From Phenylobacterium sp. (GTDB taxonomy: Bacteria > Pseudomonadota > Alphaproteobacteria > Caulobacterales > Caulobacteraceae), in contig NZ_JAQGIZ010000014.1 in the NCBI RefSeq assembly GCF_028290885.1, forward strand, positions 1 through 47,849: a stretch of 47,849 bases of DNA. The letters run 5' to 3'. This document shows positions 15,410 through 47,412 of this stretch, one piece after another. The position numbers and the translations under genes were made by a program. The notes below the pieces were generated by a model, which was not told the DNA's origin, searched no databases, and saw only the letters and a program-made list of their open reading frames with translations. Every line of letters begins with the position of its first letter. Position 1 is the stretch's first letter.

Positions 15410-16213
15410 ATGTCCGATTTTCGCGCAGGGCGTCTCGCCGCCATGCGGGCGAAGATCGCCGCCATCGAGGCGGGCGGGCGGCCGGACTCTGAATCCCTGC
15501 CGTTCGGGAACGCTCGGATCGACACCTGCCTGCCAGGCGGCGGCCTGCCGCTCGGCCGCTGGCACGAGATCGGCGGGACAGGCATGGAGGTGGAGACGGC
15601 CGCTGCGCCGGCGGCCTTCACCGCGCTCCTGGCCGCACCCCTGGCCAGGCGCGGCGAGGTGGTCTGGGTGCTGCGGCGCGACGACCTCTGCGCGCCGGGG
15701 CTCTTGGGCCTGGGGTTCCCGCCGGAGCGGCTGATCCAGGTCTGCGCCCGCGACGAGGCCGAGGCGCTGTCGGTGATGGAGGATGCGCTGTCGACGGTGG
15801 GCGTCGCCGCCGTGGTCGGCGAGGTCGAGGCCGCGGACCTGACCGCCGGGCGCCGGCTGCAGCTCGCCTGCGAGAAACGCGCCGCCACCGGCTTCCTGAT
15901 CCTGCGCCGGCCCTATGGCGGCCAGGCCCGGCGCGAGGCCACCGGATCGGCGGCGGCCACCCGCTGGCGGATCGCCTCGGCCCCCTCCGAGCCGCCGGCC
16001 GGCGAGTTCGGCCTGGGCGCGCCCCGCTTTCGCGTCGAACTGGAACGCTGCCGCGGCGGGCGGACGGGGGCGTGGCTCATGGAGGCCCCAAGAGCCTACG
16101 AACCTGGAGCCTATTCTTGGGAGAAGACGGATGTCGCGCATCCTCTGCGCCTGGTCGCCGAGCTGGACGATCGCCAACTGGCGCCGGCGCTGCCCTTCCG
16201 ACGCGCCGGCTAG
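15410..16213 (+). CDS. imuA: Mutasome protein ImuA (RecA-like/SulA-like)
   Basis: A 267-residue ImuA-type protein, first gene of the SOS-inducible translesion operon. ImuA proteins are RecA-fold relatives that work with ImuB and DnaE2 in error-prone bypass of DNA lesions. Visible family features are the N-terminal LRA-like basic helix, the LPFGNARIDTCLPGGGLPLG segment with GRWHEI following, the VVWVLRRDDLCAPGL strand, and a C-terminal RFRVELERCRGGRTGAWLME portion with WRIASAPS before it. There is no intact Walker A, as expected for the family. The ATG at 15410 has AGGAG 11 bases upstream, with the LexA box just before. The 3' end overlaps imuB by 83 bases in another frame. Confidence 0.92.
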   Translation: MSDFRAGRLAAMRAKIAAIEAGGRPDSESLPFGNARIDTCLPGGGLPLGRWHEIGGTGMEVETAAAPAAFTALLAAPLARRGEVVWVLRRDDLCAPGLLGLGFPPERLIQVCARDEAEALSVMEDALSTVGVAAVVGEVEAADLTAGRRLQLACEKRAATGFLILRRPYGGQARREATGSAAATRWRIASAPSEPPAGEFGLGAPRFRVELERCRGGRTGAWLMEAPRAYEPGAYSWEKTDVAHPLRLVAELDDRQLAPALPFRRAG

Positions 16214-17660
16214 TCCCTTCGCCCTGCTGGAGACGGTGCGGGCCGTGCGTCGCCTGGCCGCTGTCGACGCGGCCGCGGCAAGACTCGGACTCCACCCCGG
16301 CCAGAAGGCCACCGACGCCCTGGCCCTGGTCCCGGAGCTGACGACCGCCGAGGCCGAGCCGGAAGCGGACGCCGCGGCGCTCACTGCGCTCATCGACTGG
16401 TGCGTGCGCTTCTCGCCGGCGGTGGCGGCCGACGCGCCGGACGGCCTCTTCCTGGAGGTCACCGGCGTTGACCACCTGTGGGGCGGGGAGGCGCAGATGC
16501 TGGCGGATTTCCGCAGCCGGCTGATCGCCAACGGCCTGCCGTTCCGCTGCGCCATCGCCGACACCCCCGGCGCGGCCTGGGCGCTGGCCCACTTCGGCGA
16601 GGACGGGACCATCGCCCCGCCCGGCGAGCAGGCCGCCCTTCTGGCCCCCCTGCCGCCGGCGGCGATGCGGCTTTCCACCGAGACCTGGGCGCAGATCGAG
16701 CGGCTGGGCCTGCGCCAGGTCGGCCAGCTGATGGCGATCCCGCGCGCCCCCTTCGCCCGCCGGTTCGGTCGCGCCGCGCTGACCCGCCTCGACCAGGCGC
16801 TGGGCCGCGAAAAGGAGGCGCTGACCTTCCGCCGCCCGCCGACGCCGTGGTTCGCCAGGCTGGCCTTCGCCGAGCCGATCAGCGCGCCGGAAGACATGGC
16901 CCGCGTCACCTTCGACGTCGCCGCCAAGCTTTGCGCCCGGCTGGAGGCCGAGGGCCAGGGCGCGCGGCGCTTCGAGGTCTGCTTTCACCGGCTGGACGGC
17001 AAGGCCCTGCCGCTCGAGATCGGCCTCTCCCTGCCCGGCCGCGACGCCCGCCGCATCGCCAAGCTGTTCGGCCCCAAGCTAGAGACCGTCGACCCGGGGT
17101 TCGGGATCGAGGTGGTGACGCTGGCGGCCCACGCCGTGGAGCCGATCTCCGGTCGCCAGGCGCGGCTGGACAATGCCCGCGAGGCCACCGTCGAGGAGGG
17201 CCTGGCGCCGCTCGTCGACCGGCTCGCCAACCGCCTGGGCGAAGAGCGCGTCTGGCGCGCCGTGCCGGTGGAGAGCCACGTCCCGGAGCTGGCGGTGGGT
17301 CGCGCCCGGCCGCTCGCCGCACCGCCGGACACCCGGCCGTGGGACAAGGAGACCCCACGCCCAACCCGCCTCTTCCGTCGCCCCGAGGCGCTGGAGGCGG
17401 TGATGGCGCTTACCCCGGACGATCCGCCGACCCAGTTCCGCTGGCGCGGCCAGCTGCACCGCGTGCGCCGCGCCGAGGGGCCCGAGCGGATTGGTGAGGA
17501 ATGGTGGAAGGCCGCGATCGAGGACGTCGAGGCCGGCCGCGTGCGCGACTACTACCGCGTGGAGGACGCCGAGGGCGCCCGCTTCTGGCTGTTCCGCGCC
17601 GGCCTCTACGCCGATCCCGAGACCCCGCCGAAATGGTGGCTGCACGGATTGTTCGGATGA
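16131..17660 (+). CDS. imuB: Mutasome protein ImuB (Y-family polymerase-like)
   Basis: A 509-residue ImuB, a catalytically inactive Y-family polymerase relative that links ImuA, DnaE2 and the beta clamp during SOS mutagenesis. The N-terminus [20 protein letters not shown] lacks the acidic metal-binding pair of active Y polymerases, as is typical. Palm-like [20 protein letters not shown], the helix-hairpin-helix region [20 protein letters not shown] and a little-finger region follow, then a proline-rich segment with [11 protein letters not shown] and the conserved tail WWLHGLFG. The start at 16131 is supported by GGGAGAAG and by N-terminal similarity, although it lies inside imuA. The stop overlaps the dnaE2 start as ATGA. 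Confidence 0.93.
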
Positions 17661-20600
17661 CCCGCTACGCCGAGCTCCAGGCCGCGACCAACTTCTCGTT
17701 CCTGCGCGGGGCGTCGCATCCGCATGAGCTGGTGGTGGGCGCCGATGCGCTGGGCATGGAGGCGATCGGGATTTGCGACCGCAACTCCCTGGCCGGCGTG
17801 GTGCGCGCCTGGTCGGCGAAGAAGGACCTGCAGAAGACCGGCTCGAAAATCCGCGACCTCACCGGCTGCCGCCTGGACTTCGCCGACGGGACGCCGAGCC
17901 TGCTGGTCTATCCTTCGGACCGCGAAGCCTACGGCCGGCTGACCCGCCTGCTGACCGTCGGCCAGCGGCGGGCGAAGAAGGCCGACTGCCACCTGCATTG
18001 GTCGGATTTCCTGGATCACGCCGCGGGCCAGCTTGTCCTGGTCGTCCCGCCGGAGCGGCTGGACGAGGCGTTCGAGCGCGACCTCAGGCGCATCGCCGGC
18101 GAACTCACCGGCGCCGTCTGGCTGGCCGCGGCGCGGCGTTACGGCGCCCGGGACCTCAAGCGCCTTTCGCACCTCGCACAGCTCGCCCAGGCTTCAGGCG
18201 CGCCCATGGTGGCGGTGGGCGACGTGCTCTACCACGGCCCCGAACGCCGGGCGTTGCAGGACGTGCTGACCTGCATCCGCGAGGGCTGCACGATCCAGAA
18301 CGCGGGCCTAAGGCTCGAGGCCAACGCCGAGCGCCATCTGAAGTCGCCGGCCGAGATGGCCCGCCTGTTCGCCCGCTTTCCCGGCGCCGTCGAGCGCAGC
18401 GTCGAGATCGCCGAGCGGATCGAGTTCGACCTGGGTCAACTGCGCTACGAATACCCCGACGAACCGGTGCCCCCGGGCGACACGGCCATTCACCATCTGC
18501 GTCGGCTGACCTGGCGCGGCGCACAGCACCGGTTCGAAAAAGGCCTGCGGCAGCGGGAGCGGCGGACCCTCAAACGGGAACTCGACCTCATCGAGAAGCT
18601 CGGGTTCGCCAACTATTTCCTGACCGTCCACGACATCGTCCGCTGGGCGCGCGAACAGGATATTCTCTGCCAGGGCCGCGGCTCGGCGGCCAATTCCTGC
18701 GTCTGCTACTGCCTGGAAGTCACAGCGGTCGATCCGACGAAGGATGACCAGGACCTCCTGTTCTCGCGCTTCATCTCCGAGGAACGGGGCGAACCGCCGG
18801 ATATCGATGTCGACTTCGAGCATGAGCGGCGCGAGGAGGTGATGCAGTACGTCTACGAACGCTACAGCCGTGACCGGGCGGCGATCGTGGCCACCGTCAT
18901 CCACTACCGGCCGCGCATGGCGATCCGCCAGGTCGGCAAGGCGCTGGGCCTGACCGAGGACATTACAGCCGCCCTCGCCAATACGGTCTGGGGGAGTTGG
19001 GGTGACAACGTCCCGGACGAACACATCCGCCAAGCGGGCCTCGATCCGGCGAACCCGGAAGTCCGCCGGGCCGTCACGCTGGCCGAACAGCTCCTCGGTT
19101 TCCCGCGGCACCTGTCGCAACACGTCGGCGGCTATGTGCTGACCAAGCGTCGGCTCGACGAGACCGTGCCGATCGGCAACGCGGCCATGAAGGACCGCAC
19201 CTTCATCGAGTGGGACAAGGACGACATCGACGCCCTGGGCCTGATGAAGGTCGACGTGCTGGCGCTGGGCATGCTGACGGCCTTGAAACGCAGCTTCGAC
19301 ATGCTGCCGCCGCTGCCGGACGGACGCCGCATCACCGACATCACTCACATCCCGCAGGAGGACCCGGAGGTCTACGACATGCTCTGCAAGGCCGACTCCG
19401 TGGGCGTCTTCCAGGTGGAGAGCCGGGCGCAGATGTCGATGCTGCCGCGGCTGAAGCCCGAGAAGTTCTACGACCTGGTCATCGAGGTGGCGATCGTCCG
19501 TCCGGGCCCGATCCAGGGCGACATGGTGCATCCCTACCTGCGGCGGCGGGAAGGAACGGAGCCCGTGGAATTCCCTGCGCCTTCGCCGGAACACGGGCCA
19601 AGGGACGAGCTCGCCAAGGTGCTCGGCAAGACCTTCGGCGTGCCGCTGTTCCAGGAACAGGCCATGCGCCTGGCGATCGAAGCGGCCAAATTTTCCGACG
19701 ACGACGCCGACGGCCTGCGTCGCTCCATGGCCACCTTCCGCGCCAATGGACGGCTGGGGGAATACCGGGAGATGTTCATCCAGGGCATGGCCAAGCGCGG
19801 CTATGACCCGGAGTTCGCTGCGCGCTGCTTCAAGCAGATCGAGGGCTTCGGCTCCTACGGCTTTCCGGAGAGCCATGCGATCAGCTTCGCGCTCCTGGTT
19901 TACGCCTCGGCCTGGGTGAAATGTCATCACCCGGAAGTATTCTGCGCGAGCCTGCTCAACAGCCAGCCGATGGGCTTCTACCAGCCGGCCCAGCTGGTCC
20001 GCGACGCACGCGATCACGGCGTGGAGGTCCGTCCGCCGGACATCGTCTCCAGCGATTGGGACTGCACGCTGGAGCCGCCCGACGACCCGCGCGCGCCGCA
20101 CCGTGCGCTTCGCCTGGGCCTTCGCCAGATCAAGGGGTTCAAGGAAGACGAGGCCAAGGCGTTCATGAAGGCGCGGACCTGCGGCCTCGCCACTGTGGAG
20201 GACTTCGTCCTGCGGTCTGGCCTGTCCCGGCGGGGGCTGGAACTGCTGGCCGAGGCCGACGCCTTCCGGTCGCTGGGCCTCGACCGCCGCCAGGCGCTCT
20301 GGGCGGTGAAGGGCATGGCCGGCGAAATCCGCGCCGATCGCGACGCGCCATTGCTGACCCGCCAGAGCCTGAAGGAGGCCCAGGTCCAGCTGCCGTTCAT
20401 GAGCCCGCCCAAGCAGGTCGCCGAGGACTACCGCACCACCAGCCTGTCCTTGAAGGCCCACCCGGTGAGCTTCTTCCGCGGCGATCTCGAGCGGATGCGG
20501 GTGGCCCCCTGCGCGGCGCTGAAGACCCTGCGCGACCGTCGCCGCATTTCGGTGGGCGGGCTGGTGCTGGTCCGCCAGCGGCCGGGCACCGCCAAGGGCG

Positions 20601-20884
20601 TGGTGTTCCTGACGCTGGAGGACGAGACCGGCATCGCCAACATCGTCTGCTGGAAGGACGCCTTCGACGCCAACCGCCGGCTGGTGATGAGCGCCTCCTT
20701 CCTGGTGGTGCATGGCCAGCTGCAGGTCGCCAACAATGTCATCCACCTGGTCGCCGAACGCTTCACCGACCTTTCCGCCAAGCTGGGCGAGATGCGCGAC
20801 CACGAGGAGGCCCCCGGCGCCGCCCCACCGCCGCCCCACGCCCGGGTCTCCAGCCGCCTCGTCCGCAGCCGCGACTTCCATTAG
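17657..20884 (+). CDS. dnaE2: Error-prone DNA polymerase III alpha subunit DnaE2
   Basis: A 1075-residue C-family polymerase, the catalytic member of the ImuA-ImuB-DnaE2 mutasome that performs damage-induced translesion synthesis. An N-terminal PHP domain ([19 protein letters not shown], then [14 protein letters not shown]) is followed by palm and fingers. These include [17 protein letters not shown] and the catalytic [13 protein letters not shown] with acidic residues 382, 384 and 386. [12 protein letters not shown] and [11 protein letters not shown] follow, and the C-terminus is an OB-fold domain [18 protein letters not shown]. The length separates it from replicative DnaE1, which is about 1140 residues or longer. 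Translation is coupled to imuB by the ATGA overlap. It is the last gene of the operon; a TetR gene begins 37 bases later. Confidence 0.96.
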
Positions 20885-21672: not shown

Positions 21673-22797
21673 ATGACCGACGCGATCCAACTGCTTGTGG
21701 GCTCCCGCAAGGGCGCCTGGATCTATCGCAGCGACGCCAGGCGCCAGACCTGGCGCGTGCAGGGTCCGCTGTTCCTGGGCCAGATCGTCAACCACTTCGT
21801 CATCGACCCGCGTGACGGCAGGACCATGCTGATGGCGGCCTCGACCGGGCATCTGGGTCCCACCATCCTGCGCTCGACCGACGGCGGCGAGACCTGGGCC
21901 GAGGCCAAGACGCCGCCGGCGTTCCCGAAGTCGGACGACCCGCGCGCCCGGGCCGTCGACCACAGTTTCTGGCTGGAGCCCGGCCATGCCAGCGAACCCG
22001 GCGTCTGGTGGGCCGGCGCCTCGCCGCCCGGCCTGTTCCGCTCGACGGACGGCGGCGTGACCTGGGAGAGCGTGGCCGGGTTCAACGACCATCCGCGCTA
22101 TTGGGACTGGTGCCCACCGGAGGCCGGCACGCCGGACGGCTCGCTGCTGAACCAGGTGGTCATCGACCCGCGCGACCCCGCCCACATGTACATCGCCACC
22201 TCCAGCGGTGGCGTGTTCGAGAGCACGGACCAGGCGGCGACCTGGGCGCCCCTGAACGAGAACGTCGAGGCCAACTTCCTGCCCGATCCCTATCCGGAAT
22301 TCGGCCAGGACGCCCACTACATCGCGCTTGCGCCGACCAACCCGGATCGCCTCTGGCAGCAGAACCATTGCGGCGTCTATCGACTGGACCGGCCGGGCAC
22401 TCGCTGGGAGCGGATCGGCAAGGCCATGCCGGCGGAGGTGGGCGACATCGGCTTCACCGTCGTGCCGCACGCGCGCTGCGCCGACACCGCCTGGGTCTGG
22501 CCGATGGATGGCACGGAGGTCTGGCCGCGCACCAGCCCCGGCGGCCGCCCCGCGGCCTACCGCACGCGCGACGCGGGCGCGACCTGGGAACGCCAGGACA
22601 AGGGACTGCCCGCCGAGCAGGGCTGGTTCACCGTCAAGCGGCAGGCCTTCTGCGCCGACCGGGCCGACCCCATGGGCCTCTATCTGGGCACGACCGGCGG
22701 CGAGCTCTGGATGAGCGGCGACGAGGGCGAGAGCTGGCGCCAGATCGCCGCCCATCTGCCGGAGATCTATTCAGTCGTCGCCGCGCCGCTCGCATGA
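21673..22797 (+). CDS. BNR/Asp-box repeat beta-propeller protein (sialidase-like fold)
   Basis: A 374-residue cytoplasmic protein built of BNR/Asp-box repeats, suggesting a beta-propeller such as those of sialidases, VPS10/sortilin or photosystem assembly factors. Asp-box motifs S/T-x-D-x-G-x-T/S-W appear at about residues 68-75 (STDGGETW), 124-131 (STDGGVTW), 184-191 (STDQAATW), 298-305 (TRDAGATW) and 348-355 (SGDEGESW), with a weaker one at 20-27. There is no signal peptide and no evident sialidase catalytic arginine triad, so enzymatic activity should not be assumed. Its stop codon overlaps the start of the MoaD/ThiS-like gene by four bases, implying tight stoichiometric co-expression. The start at 21673 follows GGGAGGACATTCC. 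Confidence 0.82.
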   Translation: MTDAIQLLVGSRKGAWIYRSDARRQTWRVQGPLFLGQIVNHFVIDPRDGRTMLMAASTGHLGPTILRSTDGGETWAEAKTPPAFPKSDDPRARAVDHSFWLEPGHASEPGVWWAGASPPGLFRSTDGGVTWESVAGFNDHPRYWDWCPPEAGTPDGSLLNQVVIDPRDPAHMYIATSSGGVFESTDQAATWAPLNENVEANFLPDPYPEFGQDAHYIALAPTNPDRLWQQNHCGVYRLDRPGTRWERIGKAMPAEVGDIGFTVVPHARCADTAWVWPMDGTEVWPRTSPGGRPAAYRTRDAGATWERQDKGLPAEQGWFTVKRQAFCADRADPMGLYLGTTGGELWMSGDEGESWRQIAAHLPEIYSVVAAPLA

Positions 22798-23057
22798 CCC
22801 AGGTCCTGATCCCCTCGCAGCTCACCTCCTACACCGGCGGCGCGACGCGGGTGGAGGCCGCGGGCGCGACGGTGGCCGGCGTGCTGGACGACCTCGACCG
22901 GCTCTATCCCGGCCTGAAGTTCCGGGTGGTCGACGAGCAGGACCGGGTGCGCAAGCACATGCGCATCTTCATCGGCCAGCAGGAGACCCGCCAGGTCGCC
23001 GCCGCTGTGCGCGACGGCGACGAACTGCTGATCTTCGGCGCGCTCAGCGGGGGTTAG
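22794..23057 (+). CDS. MoaD/ThiS-like ubiquitin-fold protein
   Basis: An 87-residue beta-grasp protein ending in the Gly-Gly tail (ALSGG) that, in MoaD and ThiS, is adenylated and thiocarboxylated for sulfur transfer. Other family features are the N-terminal VLIPSQLTSYTGG strand, TVAGVLDDLDRLYPGL and the late VRDGDELLIFGALSGG strand. No MoaE, MoeB/ThiF, ThiG or molybdenum cofactor genes are nearby. Instead it is translationally coupled (ATGA overlap) to the BNR propeller protein. It may be a sulfur carrier for an unknown process or a protein modifier; the partner activating enzyme would have to be encoded elsewhere. It faces serA end-on, overlapping it by four bases. Confidence 0.85.
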   Translation: MTQVLIPSQLTSYTGGATRVEAAGATVAGVLDDLDRLYPGLKFRVVDEQDRVRKHMRIFIGQQETRQVAAAVRDGDELLIFGALSGG

Positions 23058-24628
23058 AACCGCAGCGCGCGGGCTTCCTTCACGTGCGGCAGGCCCTGGA
23101 TCTTGCCGATCAGCGCCTCGCTGGGTTCCTGATCGACCCCCACCAGCGCGATGGCGTCGTCGCCGGCCGAGACGCGTCCCAGGTTGAAGGTTGCGATGTT
23201 CACCCCGGCCTCGGCCAGGAGGCCGCCGAGATTGCCGATGAAGCCCGGCTTATCGAGGTTGTTGACGTAGAGCATGGTCGGGCCGAACGGGGCGTCGAGG
23301 TCCATGCCCTTGACCTCCACGACGCGCGGCGTGCCGGCCAGCACCGAGCCCGCGAAGGAGCGCTTGCCCTTCTCGGTGGTGACGGTGATGCGGATCAGGC
23401 TCTCGTAGATCGGCGAGTCCTCCTGGCGACTCTCGGAGACGGTGATGCCGCGCTCCTTCGCCACCGCCGGCGCCGAGACCATGTTGATCTCCGCCAGCAT
23501 CGGCCGCATGACGCCGGCCAGCGCCGCCGCGGTCATCGGCCGGGCGTTGAGGCGCGCCACCTCGCCCTCGTAGGCGATGTCGATGGCCTTGATCCCGAAG
23601 TCGACCATCTGGCCGGCGAAGGCGCCCAGCTTGTCGGCCAGCGCGATGAACGGCTTCAGCCGCGGCGCCTCCTCGGCGGTGACCGAGGGGCTGTTCAGCG
23701 CATTGGTCACCGCTCCGGTGAGCAGGTAGTCGCTCATCTGCTCGGCCACCTGCAGGGCGACGTTCTCCAGGGCCTCGACGGTCTAGGCGCCCAGGTGCGG
23801 GGTGGAGATGAAATTCTCCGCGCCGAACAGCACGTTCGCCTTGGCCGGCTCCTCGACGAACACGTCGAAGGCCGCGCCGCCGACGTGGCCTTCGTCCAAC
23901 AGCTTGCGCAGCGCCGCCTCATCGACCAGGCCGCCGCGCGCGCAGTTGACGATCAGCACGCCCTTGCGCGTCTTGGCGAGGTTCTCGGCCGACAGGATGT
24001 TGCGCGTCTTGTCGGTCAGCGGGGTGTGCAGGGTAATGACGTCGGCGCGCTTCAGGAGGTCCTCGATCTCCACCTTCTCGACCCCGATCTCGACAGCGCG
24101 CTCCGGCGACAGGAACGGGTCGTAGGCGATCACGTGCATCTTCAGCCCGTTGGCGCGGTCGGCGACGATGGAGCCGATGTTGCCGGCCCCGATCAGGCCC
24201 AAGGTCTTGCCGTAGAGCTCCACGCCCATGAAGCGGTTCTTCTCCCACTTGCCGGCCTGGGTGGAGACGTCGGCGGCCGGGAGCTGGCGGGCGAGCGCGA
24301 ACATCATGGCGATGGCGTGCTCGGCAGTGGTGATCGAGTTGCCGAAGGGCGTGTTCATCACCACGATCCCGGCGGCGGTGGCGGCGGGGATGTCGACGTT
24401 GTCGACGCCGATGCCGGCGCGGCCGATGACCTTCATGTTGCCGGCGGCGGCGATGACCTCCTTGTCGGCCTTGGTGGCGGAACGGACGGCCAAGCCGTCG
24501 TAGTCGCCGATGATCTTCAGGAGCTCGTCCTTGGAGAGGCCGGTCTTCACGTCGGCCTCGACGCCGCGCTGCTTGAAGATGTCGAGGGCGGCGGGGCTCA
24601 GCTTATCGGCGATGAGAACGCGGGGCAT
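23054..24628 (-). pseudogene. serA: D-3-phosphoglycerate dehydrogenase interrupted by an in-frame amber codon
   Basis: SerA oxidises 3-phosphoglycerate to 3-phosphohydroxypyruvate, the first step of serine synthesis. The full frame (524 codons plus stop, normal length) is in one register but contains TAG at 23783-23785, right after STPHLGA. In homologues this site continues with Ser-Thr; TCG to TAG is one base change (position 23784). Upstream, residues 1-281 hold the nucleotide-binding LGLIGAGNIGSIVA, NCARGG with its catalytic Arg and the catalytic His of PHLGA. Downstream, ENVALQVAEQMSDYLLTGAV, the intervening domain and the ACT domain (LYVNNLDKPGFIGNLGGLLA) are intact and open to the end. 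A second initiation at ATG 23749 is conceivable. Either a fresh nonsense mutation or a sequence error; serC upstream is intact. Confidence 0.88.
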
Positions 24629-24708: not shown

Positions 24709-25878
24709 TCAGGCGGGCTGAAGTTCGGAGATCGCGGCGGCGAAGGCCCAGTCGAGCCAGGGGGTGAGCGCGTCGAGGTCCGAGGTGTCGACCGTGGCGC
24801 CGCACCAGATCCGCAGGCCCGGCGGGGCGTCGCGGTAGCCGCCGACGTCGAGGGCCACGCCCTCCTTCTCCAGGGCGCCGGCCAGCTTCTTGGCGAACTC
24901 GGCCTGCGCCTCGTCGGAGAGCGAGGTGACCCGCGGGTCGATCACCTTCAGGCAGACCGACGTGTTGGAGCGGATCGCTGGGTCTTCGGCCAGGAAGGCG
25001 ACCCAGCCGGTCTTCTGCACCCAGGATTCCAGCACGCCGAGGTTGGCGTCGGCGCGGCGCTGCATCTCCGTCAGACCGCCGATGGAGGCCGCCCACTTGA
25101 GCGCGTCGACGGCGTCCTCGACCGCCAGCATCGAGGGCGTGTTGATGGTGGCGCCTTCGAAGAGGTCGAGGGTGACCTTGCCGCCTTTCGTCATGCGAAA
25201 GAGCTTCGGCATGGGCCACGGCGGGCTGTAGCTCTCAAGCCGGGCCACGGCGCGCGGCGACAGGATCAGGACACCGTGCGCCGCCTCGCCGCCCAGCGCC
25301 TTCTGCCAGGAGAAGGTCACCACATCGAGCTTGGCCCAATCGAGCGTCTGGGCGAAGGCCGCGGAGGTGGCGTCGCAGATCACCACGCCCTCGCGGTCGG
25401 CGGAAATGAAGTCGGCGTTGGGCACGCGCACGCCGGAGGTGGTGCCGTTCCAGGTGAACACCAGGTCGGCGTCGCCGCGCACCCGGGTCAGGTCCGGCAG
25501 CTCGCCATAGGGGGCGTCCAGCACCTCGGCTTCGATCTTCAGCTGCTTGACGACATCGGTCACCCAGTCCTTGCCGAAGCTCTCGAAGGCCAGCAGCTGC
25601 ACCGGTCGCGGGCCCAGCATCGACCACATGGCCATCTCGACGGCGCCGGTGTCGGAGCCCGGGACGATGCCGATCAGGAAGTCGTCGGGGACCTCCAGCA
25701 CCTCGCGGGTGCGGTCGATGGCTTCCTTGAGCCGCGCCTTGCCCAGCTTGGAGCGGTGCGAGCGTCCAAGGACGGCGTTCTGGAGGTTTTCGGGGGCCCA
25801 CCCAGGACGCTTTGCACAAGGTCCGGATGAAAATTCAGGGCGCGCCGGCCGCATGGCCGGCTTCGCGGGGGTCGTCAT
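24709..25878 (-). CDS. serC: Phosphoserine aminotransferase
   Basis: A PLP-dependent class V aminotransferase that converts 3-phosphohydroxypyruvate (the SerA product) and glutamate to phosphoserine; it can also serve in pyridoxine synthesis. The 389 residues carry the alphaproteobacterial-type N-terminus [18 protein letters not shown], the [10 protein letters not shown] segment, [16 protein letters not shown] and [16 protein letters not shown] with the PLP-binding Lys193. The frame extends 30 codons upstream, but ATG 25878, eight bases after GGGAG, matches homologues. Gene order serC-serA on the minus strand with an 80-base gap is the usual alphaproteobacterial operon. The leader contains hairpins described separately. 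Confidence 0.95.
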
Positions 25879-25955
25879 AGCAATGTCTCCCATCCTTGCA
25901 GATGGACTGCGCCCCGTTGGGAGGGCGTGGCCCGCGGGCCAGAAGCCCGCGTTTG
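25879..25955 (-). ncRNA. Candidate serC leader RNA (two hairpins, second overlapping the ribosome site)
   Basis: Upstream of serC the minus strand can fold two hairpins. The first is GCGGGC-TTCTG-GCCCGC (25934-25950, six perfect pairs). The second is CCATC-TGCAAG-GATGG (25890-25905), whose 3' arm overlaps the GGGAG ribosome site at 25887-25891. A conserved structured RNA called the serC motif is known upstream of serC-serA operons in Alphaproteobacteria. Position and shape fit, but I cannot run the covariance model, so the identification is tentative. Confidence 0.5.
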
Positions 25956-26034
25956 TGCTGCAGCGCAAGAGAAAGATTCTAGATGCGGCAGTTAGCTGCG
26001 CTGAGGCCCCAGCCGCGGGGCAGCTGTCGCCGGA

Positions 26035-27106: not shown

Positions 27107-29011
<1,905 letters not shown>

Positions 29012-32927: not shown

Positions 32928-34805
<1,878 letters not shown>

Positions 34806-41229: not shown

Positions 41230-43035
41230 TCAGTTCCCGAAAATCCACCCCGGCGTCAGCGTCGAGAGCTGCACGGCGACCAGGATCATCTGGTTGCCGG
41301 CGCCGAAGTCGATCACCGTGTCGGCGGCCACCTGGCTCACGGTGAAGGTGGTGCCGGGGTCGAGCATCACCCGGTCGCCTTCGGCGAGGTGGAAGTCCAG
41401 AACCCGGTCGATGCCGGCCTCCTGCGAGGTGTGGAACAGGTCCGCCCCGGCCCCGCCGCTCTCGGTGTCGTTCCCGCGGTCGCCGGACACGAAGTCGTCG
41501 CCGGCCCCGCCGGTGAGCAGGTCGTCCCCCTGGCCGCCGCGCACCTGATCGTTGCCGTCGCCGCCATCGAGGGTGTCGTTCCCGAGGTTGCCCCAGACGA
41601 CATCCGAGCCCGCGTCGCCATACAGCGCGTCGCCGTCCTTGCCGCCGACCACCCAGTCGTCCCCGCCGTTCCCATGGGCGAGATCGGCGCCGGCGTTGCC
41701 GTTGATGTCGTCGAAGGCCGAGCCGCCGGAGATGGTGTCGTTACCGTCCTCGCCGCGCAGGTAGCTGGTCCCGGCCCCGCCATCGATGACGTCGTTCCCG
41801 GGGCCCGCCATGATGGTGTCGGCGCCGGCGTTGCCCGCCAGGGAATTGCTGAGCGCATTGCCGGTCATGGAATCGGCGCCGGAGCCGCCGATGGCGTTCT
41901 CGATGTCCGCGCCCTTGGCGATCGCCACGTCGCCGGTCAGGCCGCCGACGCTGGAGAAGAAGCCCTGCCGCAGGTCGATGGTCTGGGTGGAGCCGTAGCC
42001 GGAGAAGTCCAGCGTGTCATTGCCGCCGGCGTCCCACACCGCAAACACCGCCTTCGAGGAACCGGAGGTCAACGCGTACCAGGGTTCCCCGGCGTTGGAG
42101 TTGAAGCCGTAGACCGTGTCCCCGGTGCGGGTCGCCATGTTGGCGCCGTACTCGAGCTGGGCGGCGGCGATGTCGTCCAGCAGGGGCGCCGCCGAATAGA
42201 CGCCGCCGTCGTTGCCGCCGGTGTTGGCCTCGTTGAAGTAGCTCATCACCGTGTACTGGCGGGAGTCTTCGAAGTAGCTGGCGTCGGCCGCGTAGGTGAT
42301 CGTGACGCCGGTCCCGGCGTTGTAGTCAGAGGGGTGGTCAAGGCCGATGGCGTGGCCGAGCTCGTGGACCAGCACCTGGCCGCCATAGTTCCCGACGGTA
42401 GGATTGGCGTTGTAGCCGAGCGTGGAGTTGATCCAGACGTCACCCGCCGCGGCCACGAAGCTGGTGCTGCCCGGAAACTCGCCGAAGGCCGCGGCGCCGC
42501 CGACGCCTGTGGTGTAGTCGCCCAGCAGGATGGTGGCGCTGTCGGAATAGGCGCCCTCGCCGGAATCGCCGGACCCCACGCGCACAAAGTGGATGTTGGC
42601 GACGTCGGACCAGGCTCGAAAGGCGAGCTCCGCCTCGTCGATCTGGGCGGTGTTGAAACGCTGGAACCCGCCGGCGTCGTCGGGCATCTGGGCCGGCGCA
42701 TTGGCCCGGTAAGCGTAGGTCACGGTGAAGCCGGCGCCGAGCGCCTGGGACCATCCGGGTTCGCCGCGGATGATCTGACTGGCCGCCTGATCGATGGTGT
42801 AGCTCTGCTTGCCGTTATCGGCGACGCCGGCGCGGGCGTCGGCGTTCAGGAAGGCCTGAGCCGCGCCGAGATCGTAGGCCGCCGGCACGACCAGGTGCGG
42901 ATCTTCGACGACGTGGACCTGCCCCATGCAGAGCGGGCAGGTGCAGCCGGCCGGATGCCCCGCGTTCGCGACCAGGTCGAACGGGTTGGCCGCCAGGTTC
43001 GCCGGGTCGGGGGAGATGGAGGAGTCGGGCGGCAT
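41230..43035 (-). CDS. Serralysin-type (M10) metalloprotease with RTX repeats
   Basis: A 601-residue extracellular zinc protease. The N-terminal catalytic domain has VLVHELGHAIGLDHPSDY with HExxHxxGxxH at 224-234 and the Met-turn VMSYFNE (Met264). The C-terminal half carries tandem glycine/aspartate calcium-binding RTX nonapeptides (roughly 385-520; GGDDW, GNLGNDTLDGGDGND, GGAGDDF and others) forming a beta-roll. There is no Sec signal; RTX proteases leave by type I secretion using a C-terminal signal. No ABC/HlyD/TolC exporter genes are adjacent. The short N-terminal segment contains HPAGCTCPLCMG (cysteines 31, 33, 36), unusual for a secreted RTX protein. The M10C-type peptidase serralysin C domain spans about 250-600. 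Confidence 0.93.
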   Translation of the reverse strand: MPPDSSISPDPANLAANPFDLVANAGHPAGCTCPLCMGQVHVVEDPHLVVPAAYDLGAAQAFLNADARAGVADNGKQSYTIDQAASQIIRGEPGWSQALGAGFTVTYAYRANAPAQMPDDAGGFQRFNTAQIDEAELAFRAWSDVANIHFVRVGSGDSGEGAYSDSATILLGDYTTGVGGAAAFGEFPGSTSFVAAAGDVWINSTLGYNANPTVGNYGGQVLVHELGHAIGLDHPSDYNAGTGVTITYAADASYFEDSRQYTVMSYFNEANTGGNDGGVYSAAPLLDDIAAAQLEYGANMATRTGDTVYGFNSNAGEPWYALTSGSSKAVFAVWDAGGNDTLDFSGYGSTQTIDLRQGFFSSVGGLTGDVAIAKGADIENAIGGSGADSMTGNALSNSLAGNAGADTIMAGPGNDVIDGGAGTSYLRGEDGNDTISGGSAFDDINGNAGADLAHGNGGDDWVVGGKDGDALYGDAGSDVVWGNLGNDTLDGGDGNDQVRGGQGDDLLTGGAGDDFVSGDRGNDTESGGAGADLFHTSQEAGIDRVLDFHLAEGDRVMLDPGTTFTVSQVAADTVIDFGAGNQMILVAVQLSTLTPGWIFGN

Positions 43036-45658: not shown

Positions 45659-47412
45659 GCGGTCTCGGTGTCGGTTGCGAACACCTTCTTGAGCTCGCTC
45701 TTGAGGATCTTGCCGTTGGCGTTGCGCGGCAGGGTCTCGGGCCAGAAGGCGACCTTAACCGGCGCCTTGAACGCCGCCAGCCGCGCCCGGACGAAGGCGC
45801 GCAGTTCGCTCTCGGTCGCCACGCCGCCGGGCTTCAGGTGCACCACCGCAGCGGGCTCCTCCCCCAGGGTCTTGTGCGGGATGCCGACGATGGCGGCGTC
45901 CATCACCGCAGGGTGGTCGTACAGCACGTTCTCCACCTCCACGCAGTAGATGTTCTCGCCGCCGCGGATCAGCATGTCCTTGGCCCGGTCGATTATGAAG
46001 AGGAAGCCCTCCTCGTCCAGTCGCGCCAGGTCGCCGGTGCGCAGCCAGCCGTCGACGAAGGTCTCGGCGGTGGCCTCCGGCTTGTTCCAATAGCCCTTCA
46101 CCACCTGCGGTCCCTTGACCCACAGCTCGCCCACCGCGCCGGTCGCAAGGATGGTCTTGCCGTCGGCCGGATCGCGGATCTGCATCTCGCCGACCGGGGC
46201 GGCGGGACCGGCGCTGTCGGGGCGGTTCTCGTAGTCCTTGCCGAGGTGCGAGGTGAAGGTGGCGGTGGTCTCGGTCATCCCCCAGCCGTTGCCGGGCGCG
46301 GAGCCCGGGAAGGTTTCCCCGATCCGCCGCACCAGCTCCGGCGCCGAGGGCGCGCCGCCATAGGTCACCGCGACCAGGGACGTGAGGTCGTACTTGGCGC
46401 GCGCCGGATGCTCAATCAGCTGCCAGGCGATGGTCGGCACGCCGCCGGTGGAGCTGACCTTCTCGCGCTCGATCAGCCGCATGGCGGGCTCCGCGTCCCA
46501 GCGCCGCATCAGCACGATCTTGCCCCCGGCGTTCATCGTGGGCCCCAGCGTCGCCGAAAGCCCGGTGGCGTGGAAGAACGGCACCACCAGGAGGGTGACC
46601 CGCTGCGGGAGCTTATGCGGATCGGTCTCCGGCAGCGGCTGGCCGGCGCGCAGGAAGTTGCGCACCGCCGAGATGCCGCCGGCCCCGATGTTGGAGGTCA
46701 TATTTCGATGGGTGCCCAGCGCGCCCTTCGGCTTTCCCGTGGTGCCGGAGGTGTAGAGGATGGTGGCGTCGTCCTCGGGGCCCAGCTCGACGTCCGGCAG
46801 GGGCAGGTCGCGCAGGTTCTTCCAACCGTTGACCGGGCCGACGACGTCCTCCAGCCGCGAGATCTTCGGATGCGGCGCGGCGTCGGTGAGCCTGGAGACA
46901 TAGACCTTCTGCAGGGCGCTCAGGCTGTCGAGGTAATCGGCGATCCGCCCCAAGCGCTCGTCGTCGACGATGGCGACCTTGGCGCCGGAATCGGCCAGGC
47001 CGTACTCCAGCTCCGGGCCGGTCCACCAGGCGTTCAGCGGTGTGACGATGGCGCCGAGCAGGACGCCGGCGAAGAAGGCGACCGGCCATTCCGGCAGGTT
47101 GCGCATGATCACCGCGACGCGGTCGCCCTTCCCAACGCCATCGGCCTGCAGCTGGCGGGCCAGCGCCAGGGTGGCGCGGGCGAAGGCCTCGTAGGTGGCG
47201 CGGTCGGCCTCGCAGACCAGGAACTCACGGTCCGGGAATCCGCGGGCGTTCAGGAACACGTCGCGCAGGGTCGGCGGGGCGTTCTTCCAGACCTTGGTCA
47301 TGATCCCGCGGATCGGGATCTCCTCGATCTCAAGCCGCTCGCCCGGCGCCGTGAGGCGCGCGTGCGCTTCGGCGATGGACATCACGGGCCAGGCGGGGTC
47401 AGTCACGCTCAC
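45655..47412 (-). CDS. Class I adenylate-forming enzyme (acyl-CoA synthetase)
   Basis: A 585-residue AMP-dependent ligase that should activate a carboxylic acid with ATP and CoA. Motifs: P-loop ATILYTSGTTGKPKGALGTH, A5-type GWGMTETTATF, the hinge LRTGDLARLDEEGFLFIIDR, KDMLIRGGENIYCVEVENVL and the C-terminal catalytic Lys in RNANGKILKSEL. Substrate cannot be told; the family covers medium/long-chain fatty and aromatic acids. The start is GTG 47412 with GGAG upstream. It is followed by FMN reductase and ribB with overlaps. An acyl-CoA dehydrogenase lies 93 bases upstream on the same strand, consistent with fatty-acid or xenobiotic acid degradation. Confidence 0.93.
   Translation of the reverse strand: MSVTDPAWPVMSIAEAHARLTAPGERLEIEEIPIRGIMTKVWKNAPPTLRDVFLNARGFPDREFLVCEADRATYEAFARATLALARQLQADGVGKGDRVAVIMRNLPEWPVAFFAGVLLGAIVTPLNAWWTGPELEYGLADSGAKVAIVDDERLGRIADYLDSLSALQKVYVSRLTDAAPHPKISRLEDVVGPVNGWKNLRDLPLPDVELGPEDDATILYTSGTTGKPKGALGTHRNMTSNIGAGGISAVRNFLRAGQPLPETDPHKLPQRVTLLVVPFFHATGLSATLGPTMNAGGKIVLMRRWDAEPAMRLIEREKVSSTGGVPTIAWQLIEHPARAKYDLTSLVAVTYGGAPSAPELVRRIGETFPGSAPGNGWGMTETTATFTSHLGKDYENRPDSAGPAAPVGEMQIRDPADGKTILATGAVGELWVKGPQVVKGYWNKPEATAETFVDGWLRTGDLARLDEEGFLFIIDRAKDMLIRGGENIYCVEVENVLYDHPAVMDAAIVGIPHKTLGEEPAAVVHLKPGGVATESELRAFVRARLAAFKAPVKVAFWPETLPRNANGKILKSELKKVFATDTETA

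Follow-up and report, generated by a model that had tools for sequence, protein, structure and literature searches.

Does the TAG codon inside a Phenylobacterium serA gene reflect a real loss of function, a codon that the cell manages to read through, or a local error in the sequence? The gene lies in a window of 47,849 nucleotides (the whole stretch of DNA that was analysed), which is the whole of contig C6 of a draft assembly. The relevant features are:

23054..24628, minus strand: interrupted serA, D-3-phosphoglycerate dehydrogenase of the long type, which carries an intervening and an ACT domain; over the TIGR01327 cut-off in the read-through frame, and supported by Pfam
23783..23785, minus strand: TAG, codon 282 of the 524-codon serA (CTA on the plus strand)
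23783..24628, minus strand: truncated product as written, 281 residues, ending inside the substrate-binding domain
23054..23749, minus strand: downstream open frame from GTG, 231 residues, without the NAD-binding domain and most of the substrate-binding domain
23768..23806, minus strand: patch spanning codons 275-287, where three single-base, non-synonymous changes are private to the window in the comparison with relatives
24709..25968, minus strand: serC, phosphoserine transaminase, intact neighbour just upstream of serA (TIGR01365, 695.9 bits vs a cut-off of 448.2)

A stop codon inside serA

The in-frame stop is present in this sequence. Positions 23783..23785 read CTA on the plus strand and TAG on the minus strand, which makes them codon 282 in the frame 24628..23054, as the first-pass annotation had reported. 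Its claim that the same frame goes on to a normal stop also holds; there is no further in-frame stop, and the two halves match consecutive parts of TIGR01327, the 281 residues before TAG aligning to profile positions 1-280 and the 242 after it to 282-523. Read through, serA scored 689 bits in the whole-genome search and 691.9 bits with TAG taken as Ser (cut-off 454), whereas the truncated 281-residue product alone scored 429.3 bits, below the cut-off. The read-through frame contains the Pfam domains 2-Hacid_dh (residues 4-312), 2-Hacid_dh_C and PGDH_inter, with the ACT domain just below its cut-off (26.9 vs 27 bits). A SerA of the long type is defined by an uninterrupted frame from the start to the ACT domain, and in the window this frame is broken by TAG at codon 282.

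The truncated product would end just after the conserved HLGA, whose His is a putative catalytic residue. Since such a fragment would stop in the substrate-binding domain and lack the intervening and ACT domains, it would most likely be inactive. On the other side of serA from serC, an open reading frame at 22008-23057 is convergent with serA and overlaps its end by a few bases; in its C-terminal part there is a weak resemblance, below the cut-off, to a MoaD/SAMP1-like small modifier.

Could translation restart past the stop, at GTG 23749 or ATG 23737, so that two pieces together form a split SerA? A restart at ATG 23749 had been proposed, but the minus-strand codon at 23747-23749 is GTG, and the first in-frame ATG past TAG is at 23735-23737 on the minus strand. 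A 231-residue frame does open with GTG at 23749, and a start there would yield mainly the regulatory part of the protein. However, the start would fall in the conserved ENVALQVAEQM, with 11 strongly coding codons between stop and start, and none of the relatives' 54 over-cut-off SerA matches is interrupted by a stop. Of all the explanations considered here, we find this one the least credible.

SerA in relatives and the changes around the stop

We searched 60 genomes (this one and 59 relatives) for SerA and found an over-cut-off match in 55. In the comparison with relatives that the first-pass annotation had asked for, the stop occurs, among these 55, in this genome only and in none of the 54 relatives with such a match. 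This argues against the main rival to a sequence error, namely a real, very recent serA null allele in the strain or in the sample's dominant strain, which would then need serine or glycine from outside. On the other hand, five of the 59 relatives have no SerA over the cut-off, including two near-complete genomes: G014, of the same genus (99% complete, best match 243.8 bits), and G042, of the same order (100% complete, best match 256.6 bits). The absence of this SerA may therefore occur naturally in the group, which favours a null allele. G016 has it as two partial pieces scoring 395.7 and 377.4 bits. The last two relatives without an over-cut-off match, G021 and G029, are only 77% and 82% complete.

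A second serA, which had been named as a possible rescue, was not found over the cut-off by profile search of the draft, which is itself incomplete (89.55%); a copy could still lie on the missing DNA. The genome's four other matches score far short of the SerA cut-offs and are D-2-hydroxyacid dehydrogenases. The lack of a second copy is in keeping with a null allele, as is the TAG itself, which is unambiguous in the contig.

At the position of the stop, relatives encode Ser in 94 of 109 related loci and Ala in the other 15 (a set that includes some contigs twice, such as L007 and L040). In a first set of 52 loci the counts were 50 Ser and 2 Ala. The stop had been placed immediately after a motif STPHLGA. 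Its position just after HLGA is correct, but all 52 relatives have ATPHLGA, and STPHLGA is unusual.

Three changes private to the window, the stop among them, fall within 38 bp, at codons 275, 282 and 287. All three are transversions relative to the relatives' commonest codons. Compared with 51 full-length relatives (the incomplete L038 having been dropped), the window serA deviates at four near-invariant sites, codons 188, 275, 282 and 287, and its residues at codons 275 and 287 occur in none of these relatives. Across the 109 related loci, codon 287 is always Gln, and codon 275 is Ala in 75, Cys in 33, Val in one and never Ser, the window's residue. Two of the three patch sites therefore vary among distant relatives, codon 275 being Ala in no more than 75 of the 109 and codon 282 having Ala for Ser in 15 of them, which weighs against an artefact. 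The patch had been overlooked: the downstream frame had been called fully conserved, with no decay elsewhere in the gene, and a single base had been said to explain the interruption. Neither description survives the two neighbouring missense changes. The patch is a useful addition to the picture of this locus; the finding as a whole is of an ordinary kind.

To judge how unusual such clustering is, we used 49 relatives (47 distinct), from which the distant L032-L034 had been dropped; the same set served for the private bases, the selection estimates and a simulation. The whole window serA has 10 private bases, the seven outside the patch being scattered, and the relatives have between 0 and 45. 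Counting a site as conserved if it is the same in at least 95% of relatives (315 columns), only the window, among 50 serA sequences, has three conserved-site deviations inside 12 codons; the next spans are 17 and 18. When four of the 315 conserved columns were drawn at random, a cluster of three within 12 codons appeared at a frequency of 0.0065. This grouping of the stop with two other window-only changes shifts the weight towards a local artefact. However, three other genes in the window contain tighter triplets, within 2, 5 and 8 codons (judged against only 5-11 relatives). These look like natural divergence, and clustering alone is thus no proof of an artefact.

We also looked for a donor from which the patch might have been copied by gene conversion. 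A 161-base query matched only itself and 32 bases on contig C255 (88% identity, E 2.9e-4), where the open frame is read as an unrelated protein, and gene conversion was rejected.

Selection, the draft assembly and the origin of the patch

The gene on both sides of the patch is conserved. Median dN between the window and its relatives was 0.077 before the stop and 0.111 after it, compared with 0.094 and 0.146 among the relatives themselves. Judged by these substitutions, serA is under ordinary purifying selection, also past the stop, and no relaxed selection was seen downstream of TAG in the before-and-after comparison of dN. An established pseudogene was rejected, as dN is not raised after the stop and the frame has no other stop. 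A downstream part without decay is, however, also what a very recent null allele would leave behind. Such an allele would have its two neighbouring missense changes from the same event or by chance, but relaxed selection would spread changes over the gene rather than stack three in 38 bp, and serB, in the same draft genome, is still intact together with serC.

We then counted single deviations over the 18 window genes with at least five relatives (7443 columns; 10 of the 28 window genes had fewer and were left out). The window had 90, and the mean relative 92.9. A raised deviation rate across the whole contig was therefore rejected; the contig is not error-ridden overall, which is a point against an artefact and in favour of a real allele. 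A further point against an artefact is that short-read assemblers usually remove isolated errors. For serA itself, counting the three patch codons, there were 7 deviations; the mean was 3.5.

Two other window genes stood out in these counts. A histidine kinase gene (27107-29011) has 12 window-only deviations compared with a mean of 3.6 (9 relatives), and in ftsH (32928-34805) 22 residues are private to the window, where each of 6 relatives has 6.8 on average. Both genes may be divergent copies. Further along, 41230-43035 encodes a serralysin-like M10 peptidase with RTX repeats.

The assembly from which the window comes has 3,995,140 bases in 317 contigs and is estimated to be 89.55% complete and 6.06% contaminated. 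Among named relatives, the nearest belong to Phenylobacterium and other Caulobacteraceae, and most of these are metagenome-assembled. The genome is both a draft and a mixture. Contigs C121 (L252) and C137 (L174) are homologous, with 78% identity across some 1.5 kb, and each carries tRNA-Pro(tgg) and tRNA-Arg(tct). C227 and C251 overlap exactly over 127 bases at their ends. The homologous pair and the shared end suggest a mixed, short-read graph assembly. The C121/C137 pair looks as if two related species had been binned together. Towards the right edge of the window, the gene at 45678-47396 has a 76% identical homologue on C48 (L234), which may be a paralogue or come from a second organism. 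There were 55 matching plasmid records, with identities of 70-75% among the ten listed.

Taken together, we think that the TAG is probably, though far from certainly, a local read or assembly error in an otherwise ordinary serA. We favour this reading because the three patch transversions are clustered, selection is not relaxed, the draft is mixed, serB and serC are intact, and the coding scan of 1.27 Mb turned up no second convincing split gene (see below). A thinly covered spot might have been filled from an error-rich read, or a mixed population might have led the assembler down a wrong path. We infer that the patch is absent from the organism's DNA, in which case the living cell would make normal full-length SerA. 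A real null allele is a serious possibility that falls short of being probable. If it were true, this would be one more serine-dependent bacterium.

Perhaps the patch is instead real and the product of one multi-base mutation event, for example by ImuA-ImuB-DnaE2, with serA lost in a natural population that now obtains its serine from neighbours. A likely imuA-imuB-dnaE2 cassette lies at 15410-20884, about 2-8 kb from serA; its ImuA and Y-family-like proteins are under their cut-offs, and its error-prone DNA polymerase is over it. Relatives of the imuA-like and dnaE2 genes are present around serA in all 11 relatives compared. In a study in Caulobacter (PMC7198004), the commonest spontaneous changes were A:T to G:C transitions, and loss of imuC (dnaE2) had little effect on the kinds of substitution that arose; in one marker, A:T to T:A changes became more frequent rather than less. 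The Caulobacter data thus give no direct support to a mutation event of this kind, which we regard as very unlikely.

Decoding of TAG

It has also been suggested that the stop may be read through, and the first-pass annotation rightly listed this alongside an artefact, a very recent change, a second serA and a restart. Functional readthrough, suppression or recoding of TAG would give some full-length SerA, perhaps in a regulatory manner. The downstream frame is open and under purifying selection, as this would require, but such selection reflects a shared history and is explained without readthrough. No stop occurs at codon 282 in any of the 109 related loci. No tRNA with the anticodon CUA, which would read TAG, was found among the 39 tRNA matches of the draft, although its tRNA set may be incomplete (the only Ser anticodons seen are TGA and GCT). 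Three relatives whose assemblies consist of one or two contigs yielded 39-43 tRNA matches, and two of the 39 here sit in the shared C227/C251 contig end.

TAG is also a normal terminator in this genome. Among 750 genes called by codon usage, 375 end in TGA, 256 in TAG and 83 in TAA, and 36 run off the end of their sequence. We scanned 94 stretches, covering 1.27 Mb of the genome with the window included, for stops flanked on either side, in the same frame, by 60 or more strongly coding codons; the scan concerns stops of this kind, with frameshifts and short pieces outside its scope. It returned 15 junctions, and serA is the only one whose two sides belong to a single known gene. Pfam was run on six of the others: four join different families, each over its cut-off; at one (L146) the only match on the second side is to DnaJ, slightly below the cut-off, and at another (L172) that side has none. 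The remaining 8 were judged solely by a start codon 2-5 codons past the stop. L154 and L176, candidates from an initial coding scan, do not recur in the later one, and a control scan of 392 kb of relatives gave 7 candidates. Aligned stops also appeared in many other frames, which were judged by their lower identity and strand to be shadow frames of other genes. With TAG a common terminator and serA the one convincing split gene in 1.27 Mb, an alternative code or general recoding of TAG was rejected, and we give next to no credence to functional readthrough or suppression at serA.

Comparison with known systems

Before auxotrophy or recoding is concluded from a lone broken biosynthetic gene in a draft assembly, that gene should be examined for an improbable local patch. 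Among the literature matches listed, on errors in metagenome-assembled genomes, serA amber alleles and serine auxotrophy in Phenylobacterium, no report of this case was found.

The window serA shares with the long type of SerA (TIGR01327) its whole length, its domain order and its serC neighbour, and differs from it in TAG at codon 282 and the two window-only residues beside it. Its DNA is 82-88% identical to that of the 26 serA genes compared from the same genus; of all loci compared, the closest serA has 87.7% identity. Solved relatives include 1ygy, a chain of 529 residues, and 2g76, which we take to be human PHGDH. Amber alleles of biosynthetic genes, and draft-genome errors that mimic them, are ordinary; like the window serA, they show one stop in an otherwise open frame that is absent from relatives. 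Unlike them, the window serA has two more private missense changes within 38 bp.
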